Positions 1,810 to 14,309 of a DNA stretch of 14,309 bases are shown piece after piece. The first letter of the stretch is position 1, and every line of letters starts with the position of its first letter. The notes beneath the pieces are model-generated. The model had not been told where the DNA came from, ran no database searches, and worked only from the letters and a program-made list of their open reading frames with translations. Position numbers and translations under genes: made by a program. The stretch is from Akkermansiaceae bacterium (lineage in GTDB: Bacteria > Verrucomicrobiota > Verrucomicrobiia > Verrucomicrobiales > Akkermansiaceae), in NCBI GenBank assembly GCA_028293225.1, contig JAQGPE010000488.1:1-14309 (forward strand). The letters are read 5' to 3'.

Positions 1810-3798
1810 ATGAACCCCCACATCGAGCGCTTCCTCGCCCTGGTCACCGGCACCCCTCGCCCGGGAACCCGCGATGAGGAGCGCCAGGCCGCCGTCCGAG
1901 CCGATCTGATGGAGCGTCTCCAGGACCACCGTCCCGGCCCGGGCGCGCTGACGCTGGAGGAAGCCACAGCCCGTCTGGAAAGCCGCCCTGCCACCTTCTG
2001 GCTGGGCTTGAGAGCGCTGCTGGTCGTGCTGGCGCCCCTGGCCGTGCTACTATATGCAGCGTATGTCGAACTCCCGAACTACTACGTCGCGGACGGCGCA
2101 CCGGAGTGGCTGCCGGGATTCCTGCGCCAGCGGGTGGAGCAGCGCCAGGCCTCCCTGGCCACCCGCCCGCTGCCGGAGCCTCTGTCCACCTCTCTCACCA
2201 GCCACTTCCCCACCCTCCCCCAGGAGCCGCCGCGCCCGGCCGATCTGAGTGACCCGGAGTCGCTGCAGGCCGAGAACCAGGCAAAGACCGCCCGCGATGG
2301 CGTGGTGCCGCCCGATCTCATCGCCGCATGGCAAAAGGTGGATCCTGACAACGCCTGGCTGCTGCTCCACCAGGCCAGTTTCCTGGGCGGAAAGGCCATC
2401 GAATATGTCTACGGCAAGGGCAAGACCATCACGGACCCCAACGCCGCCCGGCAGGCGATGGAACTGTGCGAGCAGGCTGCTCGGCTCCCCAAATACACCA
2501 CTTACCTCCGCCGCCGCTACGGCCGCCAGCGCGACGCCGTGCGCCGCCCGGAAACGCTGAACGAAGCGGCGGCCATCTTCAGCTTGATGCCCCGCCAGGA
2601 GCCCGACTCCTCCTCCTCCGATCATCTCGGGGATTTCTTCCAGATCCAAGCCGAGGAGCTGGTGGCGAAGGGCGACCTCCCGGCCCTCGTTCCGGTCATC
2701 AATCTCGCCCGCCGCCTCTCGATCCTGCGTTCGCTGCAACCCGGCGCCTCGGCGGAGGAATACATTGCCCTGCCCGGCTGCATCTCCCGGTCGATGGAAA
2801 AGATCCTGACTCCCGCCGCTCCCTGCGAAGCCCTGGACATCGTGCGGGATTTCTACGGCCGCCAGCGGAGCGTTTCCACCCGGGCGGCCAAGTCGATGAT
2901 GAATTCTCAGCGACAGAGCCGCGACGGACTGAAGGCCGGATTCTACCCGGTGGTTCCCTTTCAGGACGTTTCCTATCACGCCGTCCGGCAGGTCGAACGG
3001 GCCGACGCCGGGCGGGCCATCGCCTTCTGCGTCGCGCTCGGAAGCAGTGTCGTCGTGCTGCTGTTCGTGGTCCCCTTCGCGCTGGCCCAGCGTCAGCGGG
3101 GAGTCGCCCGCGCGGCGCGAAACCTGGCCCGCCTGTATGACTGGACCGCCTGTGGCCGCATCTTTCTCTTCGGTTTCGCCTTGCCGCTGCTGGGGTGGTG
3201 GCTGCTGATCTGGCACACCCGTCTCGGCGGCCGGGATCTGCCGCTCGAGCTCTTTCGCACCGATGCGCTCCACCAGTTTTCATGGCTGGGTCAGATGCTG
3301 GCCGCGCCGCTGCTGGTCTGGACCGCGGCGCTGCAGTGGGCCCGGGTGGAACGCGCCCGCCACTTCGCCTTTCTGGGTCTGAGGCCGGCCTTCCTGCGCA
3401 CCGGCTGGCTGGCGGTGGCGCTGGCTGCCCTGATCGCGCCGCTGTATGGAGCGGTGAGGTGGTTTCCGGCTACTGAGCAGGCGGGCCCGTATCTCCAGAT
3501 CGTCGCCGCGGTGCAGGGCGGCCTGATCCTCTGGTTGCTGTGGCGGCTGATCGCGGGCGGCTTCACACCGCGCTCGGGCATGCTGGGTTCGATCCTCAGC
3601 GCCTGGCTGGTGCTGCCGGTGCTGAGCGCGCTCGCGCTGGCCGCCGGTTTGTGCGTTTTCGTTTGTCAGGCAAGCGAACGCCAGGGGATGGCCAGGCTAC
3701 CGTACCTCATCCGGGCTGAAGGACCGGGATCCTACGAGACCTACCGTAGTTCCTACCGCGACCTCATGCGCGCCGAGTTCGCCGACGAGCTGAAATGA
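1810..3798 (+). CDS. Seven-TM membrane protein with a large extracytoplasmic loop, function unknown
   Basis: 662 residues, no catalytic motif recognised. The N-terminus (~65 residues) is soluble and charged and begins with MNPHIERFLALVTGTPRPG, a segment repeated in the remnant at 208, which supports this start despite no Shine-Dalgarno. TM1 is at about residues 69-86. A ~315-residue hydrophilic, helix-rich region follows, presumably periplasmic if the N-terminus is cytoplasmic. Six more hydrophobic segments come at about 404-425, 451-472, 490-512, 531-552, 561-580 and 592-620, with a polar tail of ~40 residues. The arrangement recalls a soluble sensor or binding domain tethered to a polytopic membrane core, but no permease or kinase signature is visible. 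The stop codon abuts repeat copy B directly. The neighbouring paralogue remnant suggests a family that duplicates locally. Function is not assignable from sequence. Confidence 0.85.
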   Translation: MNPHIERFLALVTGTPRPGTRDEERQAAVRADLMERLQDHRPGPGALTLEEATARLESRPATFWLGLRALLVVLAPLAVLLYAAYVELPNYYVADGAPEWLPGFLRQRVEQRQASLATRPLPEPLSTSLTSHFPTLPQEPPRPADLSDPESLQAENQAKTARDGVVPPDLIAAWQKVDPDNAWLLLHQASFLGGKAIEYVYGKGKTITDPNAARQAMELCEQAARLPKYTTYLRRRYGRQRDAVRRPETLNEAAAIFSLMPRQEPDSSSSDHLGDFFQIQAEELVAKGDLPALVPVINLARRLSILRSLQPGASAEEYIALPGCISRSMEKILTPAAPCEALDIVRDFYGRQRSVSTRAAKSMMNSQRQSRDGLKAGFYPVVPFQDVSYHAVRQVERADAGRAIAFCVALGSSVVVLLFVVPFALAQRQRGVARAARNLARLYDWTACGRIFLFGFALPLLGWWLLIWHTRLGGRDLPLELFRTDALHQFSWLGQMLAAPLLVWTAALQWARVERARHFAFLGLRPAFLRTGWLAVALAALIAPLYGAVRWFPATEQAGPYLQIVAAVQGGLILWLLWRLIAGGFTPRSGMLGSILSAWLVLPVLSALALAAGLCVFVCQASERQGMARLPYLIRAEGPGSYETYRSSYRDLMRAEFADELK

Positions 3799-5749: not shown

Positions 5750-8700
5750 ATGCGCCTCGCCCTCATCGCCCTGCTTGCCGCCGCCCCGCTCCTGGCCGCG
5801 GACCTGGAGTTCAAGGAAGCCTTCGCCGACCCGGCCCGCCGCGCCGCCGCCGTGGAGACGCTGGTGCCTGGCTCCCGCGACTGGTTCTTCTACCGGGCGC
5901 TCCAGCAGCAGCTCGCCGGAGACGCCGCGGGGTTCCAGAAGACCATGACGGAGTGGAAAGCCGCCGCCGCCGATCCGAAGCGGGCCATTTCCCGGGAAGG
6001 CTGGGAGGTGCTGGACAACCGCCGCGTCCTGCTGGGCTATGGGACCGACCCGCAGGCCAGCGTTCAGGAGCTGATCCGCAAGCTCGACCTGCACTTCGAC
6101 GACGCCCGCCCGGAAACCGATGCCGCCGCCAGCCTGCCCGACCGGCTGGACCCGGCGCTGATCTCCGCGGAGGCCTTCCGCGCCGAGGCGGCCAGGACCC
6201 ACCCCAACGCCCCGTGGGAAATCTACGGGCAGGCCGCCCTGCTGGCCGAACTGGAGCACCTGGACGATCTGAGCGAGGAAGAGGTGGAGTGGCTTTACCA
6301 CCATCTCGAAAGCGCGAGCAGCCCGCACGCTGTCGCCCTATTCAAGCGGGTCTACACCACGGAGAATCCACCCGAGTTCGGCGACGTCTCCCTGGAAAAG
6401 CATCTGACCCATGATCAGCTGGAAGAGCTCACCAAGGAGGTGCCCGCCCTGAAGGCCTCCGAAGCGATGGCCACGGCCTGGATGGCGACCCTGCCGACGC
6501 GGGAAAAGGCCGGCCCTCTCGACCCGGCCGCCCTGACCGCCCATCTGGCCGCCTGCGCCGCGTATCTGAAGGACACCCCGGAAACGCTGAATTCCCTGAA
6601 GGCAAATGTCTTCTACCACCACCTGCGGATGCAGCGGGAGGCCGGGAATTTCCCGCAGGACGTCTTCCTGGCCTACCTGCGGCTGCCGCGCGAAGGCCAC
6701 CCGCTGTTGCTGGACTCGAAGGACACGGAGAACCGGATCGATCTGGAAGGAGAGTTCAGCTCCGCCACCGGCTGCCCGGCGGTGGAGGATGACGAGCAAC
6801 TGGTCGGCGCGCTGCTGGAGCATTTCCTGGCCGCCAGCGAGACCACCGCCGCCTTCAAGGACCTCATCGAGCCCGGCAGGCTGACCCGCCTGGCCGCCCG
6901 CGCTCATCTGCTGGCAGGGGCCGATGCCGCGAAGTGGAGCAAGCCGCTGCCACCCGCCGAGGTGCAGGATTTGCAGAAGGAGACGCGCGTCGGCTTCGCC
7001 CCCGGCCGCCCGGTGGTGCTGGGCGCTGACGCGGCGGTGAAGCTGACCCTGGATCTAAAGAACACCCCGGCCCTGCTGGTGCGGGTGTTCGAGATCGACC
7101 TGGCGGACCTGGCGAAGCGGGACGAGCTCGAAAGGCTGGCGGTCGACCTGGATGTGGATGGCCTGACGCCGCATCTGGAAAAGCGCTACACCTACGCAAA
7201 TCCGGCGCTGGTGGTGCACCGGGAGAGCATCGAGATGCCGGAGCTGGGCGGTCCGGGCGCGTGGCTGGTGGAGTGCGTCTCGGGCAATGCGACCTGCCGG
7301 GCCCTGGTCCGGAAAGGCTCGCTCTACCCCAGCCTGGAGCCGACCGCGGAGGGCATGAGCCTCCGCGTCTTTAACGAGGCTGGCGTGCTCCAGAAGGACG
7401 CCGTGGCGGTCTGCGGGCCCACCACCCTCCGCGCCGATCCGGAGGGCGTCATCCGCCTCCTGGACGGCGCGGTGGAGAGCAGGGTTGGCTATGTGCAGGC
7501 GGGCAGGCTGGCCGCCACGCTGGCCCTCTACGGCTACGGCGTTTCCTTCAAACCGGAGCCGGAGCTGCGCGGCGAAATGCACGTGGACCGCGAGCAGCTG
7601 ATCCCGAACCACCCGGCCACCCTGCTGCTGAAACCGGTGCTGACCAATCACAAGGAGCCGGTGCCGCCGGACCGCCTCCAGCAGGCGCGCGTGGTGCTGA
7701 GCGCCACCCTGCAGGGCGGGACCAAAGTCGAGCGGACGCTGCTGCAGGACGTGAAGCTGCAAGCGGCGCAGGAGGTCGCCTTTCAGATCCCGGAAGGCAC
7801 GCTGAGCATGAGCGTCACGCTGACCGGCCGCTACGCCGCCTCTGAAAAGGACCGCGCCAGCACCCTGACCCTGACCAAATCCTGGACGCTGGGCCGCGAT
7901 GCGACGAATCGGTTCACGGCCGCCCCGGTCGACGCCTTCATCGCCGCCGCGCGCTTCAGCCGGGACAGCCAAGGCATCTACCTGGAGCTGCGGGGCAAGA
8001 ACGGCGAGCCATGCCCGTCGAAGGCCGTGACGCTGACTTTCCGCCATGCGGACTACCAGCCGCCGCTGAAGGCCGCCCTGCGCACGGACGCCCGTGGACG
8101 CATTTCGCTCGGCGCGCTGCGGGGCATCGGGAGCGTCGTCGCGAACGGGCCGGATTTTATGGAGAACTCCTTCATGACGGAGGAAGCGGACGACGAGATC
8201 ACGCTGCCGGGGGAAATGCGGATTTCCACCGGGGAGGAAACGCGACTGCCGCTGCCGGCGCACCTGTCCCTGCCGAACCCGGCCGTGAAGCTGATCCGCC
8301 AGACCATCACCGATCCCCGGATCGCGGCGGATCTGAGCGCGCAGTTGAAGCAGGAAGGCAACACGCTGATCGTTCCGCCCCTGCCGGAGGGTCTGTGGAG
8401 ACTCTCCCTGGCGGACAGCGAGGTGGAACTCTACGTGATGAATACCAGTGTGTCCGGTGGCATGCTGGCGGCCCCCACCGTCGTGACGGAGCACTACCAC
8501 CCGGCGCTGCCGGTCATCGGTTCCGCCACCGTGACGGGGGACGCCCTGCAGATCAGGCTGGCGCAGTCCTCCCCACTCACCCGGGTCGCGGTCATTTCCC
8601 GCCGCTACCTGATGGATCGCCACTGGGCTGGCCAAGTGGAGCCCGGCCGCGCGTCCGCCCCCTACTTCGAGTTCTTCCAGCCCGCCAAGTGCGAATATCT

Positions 8701-11700
8701 GCTGGACCGCCGCCTGAGCGATGAGAGCCGCTACATCCTGGACCGCCGCAACGCGCCACGCTTCCCCGGCGCCATGCTGCCGCGCCCCGGCCTGCTGGTG
8801 AACCGCTGGAGCCAGGAGGAGGCCAAACAGGAGAAACACACCGGCGCGGGCGGAACGCTGGGCACGCGCGAGGACAGCGCCAAGGTCAGTTCCGGAACCG
8901 CCAGCGCCGACCCCTTCGGCTCGGTCGAGGACTCGGGCTATGTGCGGTCCGGCGACATCGGCAACGTCGACTTCCTGGCCCGGGGCTCGACCGTTTTCTA
9001 TGAGCTGCAACCGGCCGCCGACGGGACCCTGAGCGTGCCGATGAAGAGCCTGCCGGGCGGACAGTTCATCGAGGTGATCGCCGCCAGCCCGGACGGAGAA
9101 CACCGCGTGATCGTGCCGCTGCCCGCCTCCGAACCGGAGCTTCAGGACCGCCGCCTGACCCACCCTCTGGACACGACCAAGCACTACGCCGGAGTCCGTA
9201 CGGCGACGGTGCTGCCGGCCGGGAAAGAACTGACCGTGGAGGGCGTGCTGGATTCCGACTGGCGCTCGTTTTCCTCCCTGCGCGAGGTCTACCAACTGCT
9301 GGGCGCGGCGACCCCGGATCCGCTGCTGGCGCTGTTCACCCCGCTGCTGGATTGGGAGCATCTGGATGAAAAGGCCAAGCTCGCCTTCCTGGCCGAGCGC
9401 GGCTGCAACGAGGTGCATCTTTTCCTGGCCAGGAAGGACCGGCCGTTCTTCGAGAAATACGTGAAGCCGCGGCTGCTGGAAAAGCGCGAGCCGACGGTGA
9501 TCGACGACCTGCTGCTGGGCCGAGATCTGTCCGGCTACTTCAAGCCGGTGGCGTGGGCCCGCCTGAATGCGGCGGAAAAGGCCCTGCTGTCCCAGACCAG
9601 CCCGCAGGCCCGCGCCCGCGTCGCGCAGGATCTGTCGCTGCGCTGGGAAGTGGAAGCGCCCGCCCCGGAGCAGGAGGCCGCGACCTTTGCCAGCACTCTG
9701 CTGGGCAAGCCGGAAGCCCGCTCGACGGAGCTTTCCGCAGCGCAAGGATTGGGAAGCCCCAGCCTGCTCGGCAAGCTGCAACAGATCGTGATCCCGGTGA
9801 TCGAGTTCGATGACACGACGCTGGAAGAAGCCCTGGATTTCCTGCGTTTGCGCGGCAGGGAGCTGGATGTCAGCGAGCAGGATCCGTCCCGCAAGGGCGT
9901 GAACATCCAGATCGTCAAGCCGGGCGGAAGCGATCCGGGAGAGCTGCATATCAACACGCTCCGGCTGCGAAACGTGCCATTCCTGGAGGCCCTGCGCTAC
10001 ATTTGCGACCTCACCCGGACACGCTTCAAGATCACGGACGACGGGCTGGAGGTGTCGCCCGCCATGGAGTCGGCTGGAGATCTGGTCACCCGGATCTTCA
10101 CGCTGCATGGCGAGGCGCTGAGCGACCTGAGTGACTTCGCCAGCTCGCCGGCGCGGCTGAAGAAATACCTGCAGGACCAGGGCATCCCCTTCCCTGACGA
10201 AGCCACCGTGTCCCTCCGTCCGCCCGCACTGGTGGTGAAGAGCACTCCTTCGGCGCTGGATTTGCTTGAGCAACTGGTCAGCGGTGAGGCCACCGGAGCG
10301 GACGAGCCTGTTGCGAGCCCGGACATCCCCGGCTTGCCGCCACTGACCGCTTCCGCTGCCAGCAACATCGTCACCGGCGGGCTGCGATCGGGCTACGGGG
10401 TGATTTCCCGCAACAACATCGATGCGGTGCTCAACCAGCCGGCTCCGAGAAATTCGGGCGAACTGCTCCGCCTGCAGGGCCGGCCCGACTGGGAGGCGGA
10501 CCGCGACAAGACCCGGGTGTGGAAGGAGCAGAACTACTACCGGTATCGTGGCGAGGGCGGGGAGTCCTTCATTCCGCTGAACGGCTTCTGGCTGGACCTG
10601 GCGAAGTGGAATGGCGAGGGGGCCTTCCTGTCGCCGCATTTCAACGAGTGCACGTACAACCTGAGCGAGGCGCTGCTGGCGCTGGCCGTGCTGGATCTGC
10701 CTGCCGACGCTCCCGCCCCGGAGACGCGGGTGGAAGGCAATACCCTGCGGATCAAGCCCGCGACCCCGATGCTGCTGTTCGCCCGGGAAACGCGTGAAAC
10801 CGGCAACCCCGAGGCCGATGCCTCCGTGCTGGTGCGGCAGACCTTCTACCGGCTGGACGACCATTTCCGCCAGGAGGGCAGCCGCCGGGTGGAGAATACG
10901 GTGAGCGGCGACTTCGTGGCGGGCGTGCCCTATGGCATGACGCTGGTGGTGACCAATCCGTCCGGCTCCAGCCGCCGGCTGGACCTGCTGGCCCAGATCC
11001 CGGCCGGGGCGATCCCGCTGCGGAACCGGCCGGCCACCCTGTCGGCCAGCCGCGAACTGGACGACTATGGGGTGCTGAACGAGGAGCTGGCCTTCTACTT
11101 CCCGCTGGCCGGAACCTACCCGGTCTATCCGCTGCACGTGGCGGACGGAGAGAAGCTGCTGGCGGTGACCCCCGTCCGCGCCCTGACCGTGGCGGCGAAT
11201 CCCGCGGCGGCCGATGCGAAGAGCTGGCCGGAACTGGCCCGTGAAGGTACGGCAGACGCCGTACTGGAGCGTCTGCGCAGCGTGAATCTCCACCGTCTGG
11301 ACCTGCGCCCGATCCTGTGGCGCCTGCACGACCGGAGCTTTTTCAACCGAGTGATGGAAATCTTCCGCGACCGGATGTTCTCCGACTCCCAGGTGGCCAG
11401 CTACGCGCTGCTGCACGGAGAGGCGGCGGAAATCCGCACCGCCCTGGAGAACACCGGCCTGGTCAAAAACGTCGGCGGCTGGCTGGACAGTCCGCTGCTG
11501 GAAGTGCACCGCGACGAACGCCCGGAGGCACGCATCACCGACTTCGACCCGCTGGTGAATCCCCGCGCGCATGCCTTCGGCGAGTATCCGCGCCTCAGCC
11601 ACCCGGCCGCTCTCGCCGCCTATGAGGCACTGCTCGACCAACTGGCCTGGAAGCCCGCGCTGAGCGATGACGACCGGCTGGCGCTGTGCCTTTCCCTGCT

Positions 11701-12538
11701 GAGCCAGGACCGGGTGGAAGAGGCGCTGAAAGACTTCGACGGGATCGATACGGCGAAGCTGACGACGCACCTGCAGTATGACTACGCGCACGCCGTGGTG
11801 CTGTTCTTCCGCAAGCAGCCGGAGCAGGCGCGGGAAATCGCGGCCAAGCATCTGGACGGCCCGCAGGAACTCTGGGTAAAGCGTTTCAGGACCGTGGTGG
11901 AGCAGGCGGACGAGATCGCCAGGCTGGCCAAGGGAGGGGTCAAGGAAGATGCGGAGGACCAGGCCGGGACCGAGCCCTCCCTGGAGCTGACCATGACGGC
12001 GGAACACCAGTTGCAGATCGAGTCGGCGCGGCTGAAGGACACCGAGCTGCGCTTCTATCAGATCGATCTGGAGATGCTGTTCTCGAAGAACCCCTTCCTC
12101 TCCACCGACGGTGGCGACCTGCCGCAGATCCTGCCGAACGAGGTGCAGAAGGTGGCGCTGGATCCTTCCGGCAAGACACTGGTGACGATCCCGGACGGCT
12201 TCAGCGCCGGCAACGTGCTGATTTCGGCCAGCTCCGGCGAGGCGCAGGCGCTGCGGATCCTGGACAGCCCGGCGCTGACCGTCACGCGCCAGACCGCCCA
12301 GCGGACTCTGCAGGTGACCGATACGGCGACGCACCTGCCGCTGCCGGAGACGTATGTGAAGGTCTACGCGATGGGTGACGATGGAGAGCCGGTCTTCCAC
12401 AAGGACGGCTACACCGACCTGCGCGGGAAATTCGACTACCTGACCCACACCGGCGTGGAGGTCTCAAATATCCGGAAGCTGGCGATCCTGACCGTGCACC
12501 CGGAGAAGGGCGCGCGGGTCGAGATCATCGACCTGTGA
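5750..12538 (+). CDS. Giant exported multidomain protein of a PVC-type conserved family with an embedded secretin-N/STN-like segment
   Basis: 2262 residues, function unknown. The ATG at 5750 begins a signal peptide (MRLALIALLAAAPLLAA, then DLEFKEAF); no lipobox, no later TM segment, so probably periplasmic or secreted. About 20-400 is helical. About 420-1000 is beta-rich, resembling macroglobulin-type repeats, and includes a PELGGPGAWLVE...ALVRKGSLYPS stretch. A polar low-complexity linker follows (~1015-1070). About 1168-1282 is helical with GCNEVHLFLARKD (C1219) and LNAAEKALL. About 1343-1450 resembles a secretin N0/STN domain (IPVIEFDDTTLEEALDFL, LRLRNVPFLEALRYI), with a second N-type unit to ~1515. 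About 1610-1650 has NGFWLDLAKW and LALAVLDLP. About 1935-2035 is TPR-like (VNPRAHAFGE, LQYDYAHAV). The C-terminus has FYQIDLEMLFSKNPFL and HKDGYTDLRGKFDY (~2215-2230). From memory, several blocks recur in large hypothetical proteins of Planctomycetes; unverified. No CGEQ thioester is present. Confidence 0.9.
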   Translation: MRLALIALLAAAPLLAADLEFKEAFADPARRAAAVETLVPGSRDWFFYRALQQQLAGDAAGFQKTMTEWKAAAADPKRAISREGWEVLDNRRVLLGYGTDPQASVQELIRKLDLHFDDARPETDAAASLPDRLDPALISAEAFRAEAARTHPNAPWEIYGQAALLAELEHLDDLSEEEVEWLYHHLESASSPHAVALFKRVYTTENPPEFGDVSLEKHLTHDQLEELTKEVPALKASEAMATAWMATLPTREKAGPLDPAALTAHLAACAAYLKDTPETLNSLKANVFYHHLRMQREAGNFPQDVFLAYLRLPREGHPLLLDSKDTENRIDLEGEFSSATGCPAVEDDEQLVGALLEHFLAASETTAAFKDLIEPGRLTRLAARAHLLAGADAAKWSKPLPPAEVQDLQKETRVGFAPGRPVVLGADAAVKLTLDLKNTPALLVRVFEIDLADLAKRDELERLAVDLDVDGLTPHLEKRYTYANPALVVHRESIEMPELGGPGAWLVECVSGNATCRALVRKGSLYPSLEPTAEGMSLRVFNEAGVLQKDAVAVCGPTTLRADPEGVIRLLDGAVESRVGYVQAGRLAATLALYGYGVSFKPEPELRGEMHVDREQLIPNHPATLLLKPVLTNHKEPVPPDRLQQARVVLSATLQGGTKVERTLLQDVKLQAAQEVAFQIPEGTLSMSVTLTGRYAASEKDRASTLTLTKSWTLGRDATNRFTAAPVDAFIAAARFSRDSQGIYLELRGKNGEPCPSKAVTLTFRHADYQPPLKAALRTDARGRISLGALRGIGSVVANGPDFMENSFMTEEADDEITLPGEMRISTGEETRLPLPAHLSLPNPAVKLIRQTITDPRIAADLSAQLKQEGNTLIVPPLPEGLWRLSLADSEVELYVMNTSVSGGMLAAPTVVTEHYHPALPVIGSATVTGDALQIRLAQSSPLTRVAVISRRYLMDRHWAGQVEPGRASAPYFEFFQPAKCEYLLDRRLSDESRYILDRRNAPRFPGAMLPRPGLLVNRWSQEEAKQEKHTGAGGTLGTREDSAKVSSGTASADPFGSVEDSGYVRSGDIGNVDFLARGSTVFYELQPAADGTLSVPMKSLPGGQFIEVIAASPDGEHRVIVPLPASEPELQDRRLTHPLDTTKHYAGVRTATVLPAGKELTVEGVLDSDWRSFSSLREVYQLLGAATPDPLLALFTPLLDWEHLDEKAKLAFLAERGCNEVHLFLARKDRPFFEKYVKPRLLEKREPTVIDDLLLGRDLSGYFKPVAWARLNAAEKALLSQTSPQARARVAQDLSLRWEVEAPAPEQEAATFASTLLGKPEARSTELSAAQGLGSPSLLGKLQQIVIPVIEFDDTTLEEALDFLRLRGRELDVSEQDPSRKGVNIQIVKPGGSDPGELHINTLRLRNVPFLEALRYICDLTRTRFKITDDGLEVSPAMESAGDLVTRIFTLHGEALSDLSDFASSPARLKKYLQDQGIPFPDEATVSLRPPALVVKSTPSALDLLEQLVSGEATGADEPVASPDIPGLPPLTASAASNIVTGGLRSGYGVISRNNIDAVLNQPAPRNSGELLRLQGRPDWEADRDKTRVWKEQNYYRYRGEGGESFIPLNGFWLDLAKWNGEGAFLSPHFNECTYNLSEALLALAVLDLPADAPAPETRVEGNTLRIKPATPMLLFARETRETGNPEADASVLVRQTFYRLDDHFRQEGSRRVENTVSGDFVAGVPYGMTLVVTNPSGSSRRLDLLAQIPAGAIPLRNRPATLSASRELDDYGVLNEELAFYFPLAGTYPVYPLHVADGEKLLAVTPVRALTVAANPAAADAKSWPELAREGTADAVLERLRSVNLHRLDLRPILWRLHDRSFFNRVMEIFRDRMFSDSQVASYALLHGEAAEIRTALENTGLVKNVGGWLDSPLLEVHRDERPEARITDFDPLVNPRAHAFGEYPRLSHPAALAAYEALLDQLAWKPALSDDDRLALCLSLLSQDRVEEALKDFDGIDTAKLTTHLQYDYAHAVVLFFRKQPEQAREIAAKHLDGPQELWVKRFRTVVEQADEIARLAKGGVKEDAEDQAGTEPSLELTMTAEHQLQIESARLKDTELRFYQIDLEMLFSKNPFLSTDGGDLPQILPNEVQKVALDPSGKTLVTIPDGFSAGNVLISASSGEAQALRILDSPALTVTRQTAQRTLQVTDTATHLPLPETYVKVYAMGDDGEPVFHKDGYTDLRGKFDYLTHTGVEVSNIRKLAILTVHPEKGARVEIIDL

Positions 12539-13444: not shown

Positions 13445-13747
13445 CTACTCCAGCGTGGCGAAGAAGTTGCCGTCACGGTCGCGGTGATACTTCACGCTGG
13501 GCCAGCCCTCGACGGGGTCCGGAAGGGTGAACTCCGCCGCCTCCCCGTGGAGCAGGATTTCCTCCAGCACGCCCTCGTCGAAGGCGAGATCGCCTCTCAG
13601 CGAGCGGCCCTGGATTTCAAAGCGGAACTCCAGGAGGAAGGAATCGCCCGCCTGCTCGATGGCTGCGGCCGCCTGCGGATACTGGAGCAGATCCAGCGTT
13701 TCGGCGATGCTGCTGCCCTTGCGGGGAATCTGGGATGAGGAAGGCAT
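13445..13747 (-). CDS. Small acidic protein of unknown function, divergent from tetR
   Basis: 100 residues from the ATG at 13747 (MPSSSQIPRKGSSIAETLDLL...); an ATG at 13783 would add 12 residues of less protein-like character. No signal peptide or TM segment is present, so probably cytoplasmic. The sequence has a helical AAAIEQAG region, then beta-like alternation (FLLEFRFEIQGRSLRGDLAF), and an acidic middle (FDEGVLEEILLHGEAAEF). It ends in GWPSVKYHRDRDGNFFATLE. No family recognised. It is transcribed away from the TetR-type gene, and the ~175-bp spacer between their starts carries two tet-operator-like palindromes, so it is a candidate target of that repressor. No clear Shine-Dalgarno. Coding status rests on frame openness, sensible composition and position. 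Confidence 0.6.
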   Translation of the reverse strand: MPSSSQIPRKGSSIAETLDLLQYPQAAAAIEQAGDSFLLEFRFEIQGRSLRGDLAFDEGVLEEILLHGEAAEFTLPDPVEGWPSVKYHRDRDGNFFATLE

Positions 13748-13868
13748 GGTCGCTTTAAGAAAGGATGATCGCGAGGGTCGCAACAGGGGCTTTTCTCAGG
13801 CAGCACGCCGGACTTGGGAAGGACTTTTGCGCCGGGAACGGACTTCATCTGCGGCCTCTGGAGGCCTG

Positions 13869-13885
13869 ATTTATCAGTGATAAAT
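13869..13885. promoter_or_regulatory. tet-operator-like palindrome 1
   Basis: ATTTATCAGTGATAAAT, a perfect 17-bp palindrome about a central G (13877). Its core TATCA-N-TGATA is identical to that of the classical Tn10 tet operators (known), and the central G is the one in the TATCAGTGATA variant. It lies 38 bp upstream of a TetR-type gene. It is also part of a 12-bp inverted repeat, GCCTGATTTATC (13864-13875) with GATAAATCAGGC (13909-13920). Confidence 0.8.
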
Positions 13886-13900
13886 AAATCGACAAATTCC

Positions 13901-13913
13901 TTATCGTCGATAA
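13901..13913. promoter_or_regulatory. tet-operator-like palindrome 2
   Basis: TTATCG-T-CGATAA, a 13-bp perfect palindrome centred on 13907, exactly 30 bp from the centre of palindrome 1 (13877). It shares the TTATC half-site but has G/C in place of A/T next to the centre. Its last three bases (TAA, 13911-13913) are an in-frame stop that fixes the tetR start just downstream. The site probably overlaps the tetR promoter or transcription start. Confidence 0.65.
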
Positions 13914-13922
13914 ATCAGGCGG

Positions 13923-14309
13923 GTGGCCCGTCGAGAAAATGCCCCGAAGCTGGATCGAGCGAGCGTGGTTGCCGCGGCTCTGGAGCTCCTGAACGAGACC
14001 GGTCTGGATGAAATGACCACCCGCAAGCTGGCCGGGCGGCTGGGGGTCCAGCAACCCGCCCTCTACTGGCATTTCCCCAACAAGCGCGCCCTGCTGGATG
14101 CTCTGGCGGAGGAAATGCTTACCCGAGGCCATACCCGCTCCCGGCCGCGAGCGGGTGAGAACTGGCGATCGTTCCTGCTGGAAAACGCCCGCAGCTTTCG
14201 CAGGGCCTTGCTGGCCTACCGCGATGGGGCGCGCATCCATGCGGGAACCAGCCCTTCCGCGCCGCAGTTCGGAGACATCGAAGCCCAGTTGCAGTTGCTC
14301 TGCGGCGCC
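13923..14309 (+). CDS. tetR: TetR family repressor of the tetracycline-repressor class (partial, runs off the window)
   Basis: Transcriptional repressor; the family releases its operator when bound by Mg-tetracycline or a related ligand. 129 codons from GTG at 13923, open to the window edge. The start is fixed by an in-frame TAA at 13911-13913 with no other usual start codon between. Residues 10-60 form the helix-turn-helix domain ([43 protein letters not shown]), very close to Tn10 TetR. The start of the ligand domain keeps the counterparts of TetR His64, Asn82, Phe86, His100, Thr103 and Gln116 (here H70, N88, F92, H106, T109, Q122), while Arg104 is Ser110. Two operator-like palindromes lie just upstream, so autoregulation is likely. 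The divergent gene is not an efflux pump. The ligand may be tetracycline or a similar polyketide; the C-terminal half is not visible. Confidence 0.9.

Follow-up and report, generated by a model that had tools for sequence, protein, structure and literature searches.

A predicted tetracycline-responsive tetR–flavin monooxygenase operon in an Akkermansiaceae draft genome

The stretch of DNA analyzed here (the window) is the entire contig C158, 14,309 nt, of the draft assembly of an Akkermansiaceae bacterium. It ends within a tetR gene preceded by two palindromes, which raises the question of whether this is a genuine tetracycline switch and, if so, which gene it would control. The initial annotation of the window had proposed a Tn10-like arrangement; this observation holds, and it is stronger than first stated. 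The features on which the analysis is built are given in Table 1.

Table 1. Positions of the control region, the genes and the contig overlap (window coordinates unless a locus is named)
Feature	Position	Strand	Description
Operator 1, TTTATCAGTGATAAA	13870..13884, centre 13877	.	7/7 arm pairs; matches one tetR(A) operator of plasmid record L145
Operator 2, TTATCGTCGATAA	13901..13913, centre 13907	.	6/6 arm pairs; 30 bp from operator 1
Inverted repeat, 57 bp, around both operators	13864..13920	.	Perfect 12-base outer arms, 13864-13875 and 13909-13920
tetR, first 129 codons	13923..14309	+	GTG start; cut by contig end; TetR_N and first part of TetR_C_1
Contig-end overlap	14284..14309	+	26 bases, equal to the first 26 of contig C227 (L003)
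tetR continuation on C227	up to L003:287	+	In frame over the 26-base overlap
Flavin (FAD) monooxygenase, 518 aa	L003:284-1840 (C227)	+	Start inside tetR stop; ATGA overlap
Divergent TetR-monooxygenase loci	L053, L075, L084, L097, L100, L104, L106, L107; about 2860-3010 each	divergent	Streptomyces/Kitasatospora

Paired operators and the Tet-class repressor

The two palindromes noted upstream of tetR proved to be real, with complete arm pairing and the spacing first described. As yardsticks, we used five plasmid tet regions carrying tetR of classes A, B, C, D and G. Operator 1 is identical at 15/15 bases to one of the two plasmid tetR(A) operators. The distance between operator centres, measured for classes A, B and D since the class C record gave one site and the class G record none at the script cut-off, is 32 bp for tetR(A), 30 bp for tetR(B) and 28 bp for tetR(D), against 30 bp in the window; the Tn10 spacing cited in the annotation agrees with that measured on the plasmid tetR(B) record. 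When the region 13784-13922 was subjected to 2000 dinucleotide shuffles, TTATCNNNGATAA appeared in none of them, at least one perfect 13-bp odd palindrome in 66, and two or more in a single one. Five further perfect 13-bp odd palindromes are present in the window, with sequences unlike the operators. A search of the organism's own assembly (4.5 Mb, 62% complete) for TTTATCRNYGATAAA with up to one mismatch returned only the two operator sites. The 11-base core TATCRNYGATA occurs there in five places, two of which are the operators, and the other three each overlap a run of more than 100 stop-free codons on one or both strands. A consensus scan for promoters found none. Divergent from tetR lies an ORF of 112 aa (13445-13783, minus strand) without a Pfam match; with some 87 bp between its start and operator 1, its promoter might be within reach of the operators as well.

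The 129 residues encoded in the window match Pfam TetR_N (E = 1.4e-15) and TetR_C_1 (E = 1.9e-12, profile positions 2-57), and the half encoded on contig C227 matches TetR_C_1 (E = 3.6e-15, positions 51-145). Against the NCBIfam TetR model PRK13756, whose equivalog cut-off of 265 bits applies to a whole protein, the halves scored apart gave 204.7 and 66.8 bits. The closest solved relatives of the window half are TetR of classes G and A. This half is 75% identical to a Bosea repressor, 70% to TetR(A) and 58% to TetR(B), and the range for known tetracycline repressors is 70-77%.

With the halves aligned as separate fragments, all eight pocket positions that were checked are kept: H64, N82, F86, H100, T103, P105, Q116 and E147, in the TetR(B) numbering, positions that contact tetracycline-Mg. 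The six ligand residues first recognized are all present, with P105 in addition, and position 104 is S rather than R. The annotation had left its reading to depend on the missing C-terminal half; TetR_C_1 is present on C227, and E147 is retained there. The same eight residues are found in 98 of 105 full-length homologues (those of at least 195 aa among 119 listed, from the top 120 of 727 matches). At position 104, R occupies 101 of these 105 and S none, and R104S is a real departure from the tetracycline pocket. The 70% identity of the N-terminal half to TetR(A), the exact class A operator, the intact pocket positions and the contrast with the eight Streptomyces and Kitasatospora repressors described below together support the proposal that this is a genuine Tet-class tetracycline switch, as predicted from its sequence, and not a generic TetR-family regulator.

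The contig junction and the gene behind tetR

The overlap between the end of the window and the start of contig C227 is exact, end to end, and the tetR frame is kept across it. C227 is also the sole other match to 710 window bases in the assembly, which comprises 4.5 Mb in 820 contigs and is 61.8% complete and 0.98% contaminated. The identity to TetR(A) falls from 70% in the N-terminal half to 41% in the C-terminal half; between the real classes A and G it falls from 75 to 31%, and given this resemblance the join looks natural. In G019, a single-contig genome of the same genus, the genes flanking the two contig ends are not neighbours, since they lie at 555 kb and 5582 kb. From the overlap and the reading frame, we infer that C158 and C227 join.

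The Verrucomicrobiota origin suggested for the window agrees with the gene content of both contigs. For OpcA, whose gene is on C227, the nearest named relatives are proteins of Luteolibacter and Haloferula, at 68% identity, and orthologues are present in 16 of 18 genomes of the genus. A 2262-aa protein of the window (5750-12538, plus strand) has orthologues in 14 of the 18, with the organism's own genome included in both counts. These distributions led us to discard the idea that the contigs are foreign DNA binned in error. The 2262-aa protein has no Pfam match and is 39-49% identical over most of its length to proteins of many genus genomes.

A flavin monooxygenase gene follows tetR on C227 with an ATGA overlap. 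Overlaps of this kind are the usual sign of a single transcript and of coupled translation. Its 3' end and that of opcA, a gene pointing towards it and preceded by zwf, are 5 bp apart. Its product carries the Pfam domains FAD_binding_3 and Rng_hyd_C and passes NCBIfam PRK06184, a model named 'hypothetical protein' (521 bits, cut-off 476), and it does not reach the equivalog cut-off of the rifampin monooxygenase NF033145 (239.2 of 800 bits). The tet_destruct model (cut-off 550 bits) is absent from the best 25 of its 68 NCBIfam matches, the 25th of which scores 61 bits. With a 15-sequence profile, the top PDB match was the rifampin monooxygenase Rox (5kow, E = 1.3e-67, profile positions 4-357, the FAD domain only), and the best match over the full length was OxyS (4k2x, E = 7.8e-66, positions 4-517). 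An AlphaFold2 model of the enzyme (pLDDT 84.6) also gave 4k2x, titled OxyS anhydrotetracycline hydroxylase, as the first Foldseek match. VIA-align 2 lists many simple aromatic hydroxylases ahead of OxyS, which takes rank 43 among the 50 rows shown; these rows include no destructase of the Tet(X) or Tet(50) type. This suggests that the fold is generic to the monooxygenase class, and it does not settle the substrate.

As for a pump, the paired operators of the Tn10-like geometry stood, but its divergent tetA did not: no tetA is adjacent to tetR, and the next ORF to the left is the 112-aa frame described above. A TetA-like MFS protein, 42% identical to plasmid TetA(A), is encoded elsewhere in the genome on contig C661 (L153:1883-3157, minus strand). 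No tetO core was found on this contig, where about 140 bp of sequence precede the gene; a hidden tetA regulon was set aside on this result, from a search that is not exhaustive in an assembly 62% complete. In all likelihood, the predicted target of the switch is the monooxygenase and not a pump.

Relatives and known systems

Both genes are rare in the phylum. Among 387 sampled genomes, TetR (E up to 1e-15) and the monooxygenase (E up to 1e-90) were each found in a single one, the organism's own, in searches that scored up to 11 or up to 3 candidates per genome; this coincidence suggests a joint arrival. Within the family, TetR was found in 1 of 195 genomes.

Eighty relatives of the enzyme were fetched with their DNA from public genomes. 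Eight of these loci, all from Streptomyces or Kitasatospora, have a strong divergent TetR-class match (Table 1), and a further 11 have weak TetR-family matches (E = 2e-7 to 5e-3). The eight resemble the window in that a TetR-class repressor with paired palindromes lies by a related monooxygenase; they differ from it in their divergent genes, in their TTAACNNNGTTAA operators and in having lost tetracycline-pocket positions. TTAACNNNGTTAA palindromes lie between the genes in all eight, two per locus at 35-37 bp in six of them and one perfect plus two imperfect in the other two. H64, N82, F86 and H100 are missing from every one of the eight repressors. No TetR-class neighbour was found for the nearest fetched relatives of the enzyme (L029-L032 and L061, 50-56% identical).

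A sample of 401 genomes from the family of Nocardia brasiliensis (GTDB Mycobacteriaceae) yielded 30 fetched TetR loci. A monooxygenase 32-36% identical to the window enzyme is present in nine of them, and a distant one (24%) in one more. The full pocket set was found in none of the 25 TetR ORFs that could be extracted from the 29 actinobacterial loci L116-L144, the four left out being L117, L121, L124 and L131. The window pair is thus alone, among the TetR-monooxygenase pairs examined, in having the full tetracycline pocket. In an enzyme tree, for which 104 sequences were intended, 97 extracted and 96 used (the TetR-linked L075 is absent), the window enzyme groups in a 19-row set (SH-aLRT 99), and the TetR-linked enzymes from Streptomyces and from the Nocardia family fall elsewhere. 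This was a quick tree with long branches flagged, and its label-shuffle test is without power. From these distributions, pairings of TetR-type repressors with monooxygenases seem to have arisen on more than one occasion. A primer-pattern search for MAB_1496c in the 401 genomes matched six at two mismatches, and none of these has a related gene by tblastn.

One of the actinobacterial loci (genome G804, L116:1465-3377) carries divergent genes for a 418-aa monooxygenase and for a TetR in which six of the eight pocket residues are kept. The best PDB matches of this enzyme are 8twg, Tet(56), 8twf, Tet(55), Tet(51) and Tet(50) (E = 1.4e-54 to 3.8e-49), and the tetO-type cores TATCAGCGATA and TATCACTGATA lie between the genes with centres 31 bp apart. 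8TWG and 8TWF are given as the destructases Tet(56-2) and Tet(56-3) in a destructase survey (PMC10944477). The enzyme scores 209 bits against tet_destruct, where the cut-off is 550, which makes it a homologue of Tet(50)-Tet(56) and not a proven destructase.

The kind of system proposed here is known from a mycobacterium. One report describes MabTetRx of Mycobacterium abscessus as the repressor of the tandem MAB_1497c-MAB_1496c operon; it acts at a 35-bp tetO, its repression is relieved by tetracycline and by doxycycline, and purified MabTetX hydroxylates both drugs (PMC6143652). Expression of MabTetX in M. smegmatis or E. coli conferred no resistance (PMC9430549). The destructase survey likewise describes no resistance in E. 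coli, and it states that the low identity of MabTetX would warrant a 'type 3' destructase class (PMC10944477). A tandem tetR and FAD monooxygenase behind tetO, of the MabTetRx-MabTetX type, can be traced from the window across the 26-base contig overlap. The two systems share a TetR-type repressor upstream, in one operon (here an apparent one) with an FAD monooxygenase, and tetO in front, a likeness of operon layout as published rather than of compared sequences; they differ in phylum, and the window has a class A type operator pair. What is new here is a true class A operator together with a pocket that is almost intact and an enzyme that the known destructase profile does not cover.

With the Tn10/RP1-type tetR/tetA systems (classes A, B, C, D and G), the window shares the repressor class, the pocket, the operator core and a spacing of 28-32 bp where measured. 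In those systems tetA is divergent; here the gene that appears to be the target is codirectional with tetR and lies behind it. The Tet(X) and Tet(47)-Tet(56) destructases are FAD monooxygenases with the chemistry proposed for the window enzyme, but the latter is longer, carries Rng_hyd_C, falls below the tet_destruct profile, and is nearer to OxyS and Rox. No TetR-controlled destructase is named in the sections consulted of three articles (PMC5988894, PMC7229144, PMC7725328). In titles and abstract openings, a literature search found no tetR-monooxygenase operon in Verrucomicrobiota, and a search for OxyS with TetR gave nothing relevant.

Proposed regulation and alternative readings

Read from the DNA itself are the operator pair, a Tet-class protein that keeps its pocket positions, the 26-base overlap, the continuing frame and the ATGA overlap; they suggest, with a confidence somewhat above even, an autorepressed, tetracycline-inducible tetR-monooxygenase operon whose enzyme probably hydroxylates and inactivates tetracyclines. 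By binding both operators (13870-13913), the repressor would likely shut off its own gene together with that of the flavin monooxygenase, and it would likely let go upon binding tetracycline-Mg. The monooxygenase would then probably hydroxylate, and so inactivate, tetracyclines. The outcome would be an inducible resistance by enzyme, not by efflux: the gene that appears to come after tetR encodes a flavin monooxygenase where a drug pump might be expected, and the arrival of the drug would likely lead the pair to start an enzymatic attack on tetracyclines. The predicted control of the operon by the repressor is well supported by sequence, judging from operator identity, spacing, site uniqueness, the pocket, the in-frame TetR_C_1 and the ATGA overlap. 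The proposed attack on tetracyclines, at which the OxyS match, the MabTetRx precedent and the G804 parallel hint, is the weakest step. Weighing against the proposal are R104S, the shortness of the join together with the gene positions in G019, the place of the enzyme outside tet_destruct and its passing no subfamily model but the 'hypothetical protein' one, the low rank of OxyS, the lack of a promoter in the scan, the close enzyme relatives without a TetR-class neighbour, and the MabTetX precedent of no resistance (PMC9430549).

The strongest competing reading, which we hold to be less likely, is that the switch is real but the enzyme oxidizes another aromatic or polyketide compound, with the repressor sensing that compound or a tetracycline-like natural product. 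A serine at position 104, seen in no homologue, the fold common to many aromatic hydroxylases and the rifampin monooxygenase as top PDB sequence match all suit it, as do the TetR-class repressors found beside other monooxygenases, which have lost the tetracycline positions, so that such pairs can serve other ligands. Unlike in those pairs, all eight pocket positions are kept here, and the operator is class A to the letter. A misjoin of the contigs, in which C227 does not lie next to C158 and the rest of tetR and its target, perhaps a tetA pump, are elsewhere, is improbable: an overlap of just 26 bases, flanking genes that are not neighbours in G019 and an assembly 62% complete leave room for it, but the two contig ends coincide base for base and keep the reading frame, what C227 supplies is the C-terminal half that the window lacks, with TetR_C_1 positions 51-145 where the window has 2-57, and no other contig matches the 710 window bases. 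We give hardly any credence to a generic TetR-family regulator accompanied by chance palindromes; such regulators are common and the window holds five other perfect palindromes of 13 bp, but the N-terminal half is 70-77% identical to known tetracycline repressors, and this identity, the pocket residues and the operator led us to reject the generic regulator. Chance palindromes are rejected in turn by the absence of TTATCNNNGATAA from the shuffles and by the identity of operator 1 to a tetR(A) operator.

Beyond the operon itself, a wider reading has, in our estimate, a chance just short of even: that the enzyme represents a new tetracycline-inactivating monooxygenase, of an OxyS/Rox-like clade that belongs to neither type 1 nor type 2 of the destructases, whose substrate is betrayed by a true tetracycline repressor, and that flavin monooxygenases have come under Tet-type repressors on several occasions, in one case at a locus with tetO cores and a destructase homologue. 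If so, repeated recruitment would make 'true tetR + monooxygenase' a genome-mining signature for further tetracycline destructases. Destructase searches depend on resemblance to Tet(X) and Tet(47)-(56); they would probably pass over the window enzyme, which lies below the tet_destruct profile. The intact pocket and the literal class A operator are a pointer to the substrate that does not depend on the sequence of the enzyme. Should the enzyme work as proposed, it would represent a further case of enzymatic tetracycline resistance, in an environmental phylum little studied for resistance.

A scan of viral contigs with the enzyme alignment gave 22 pattern matches and no relative. At another locus (genome G825, L115:220-2124), a TetR with the full pocket set and TTTATCGACGATAAA upstream is divergent from a TetA-type MFS protein.
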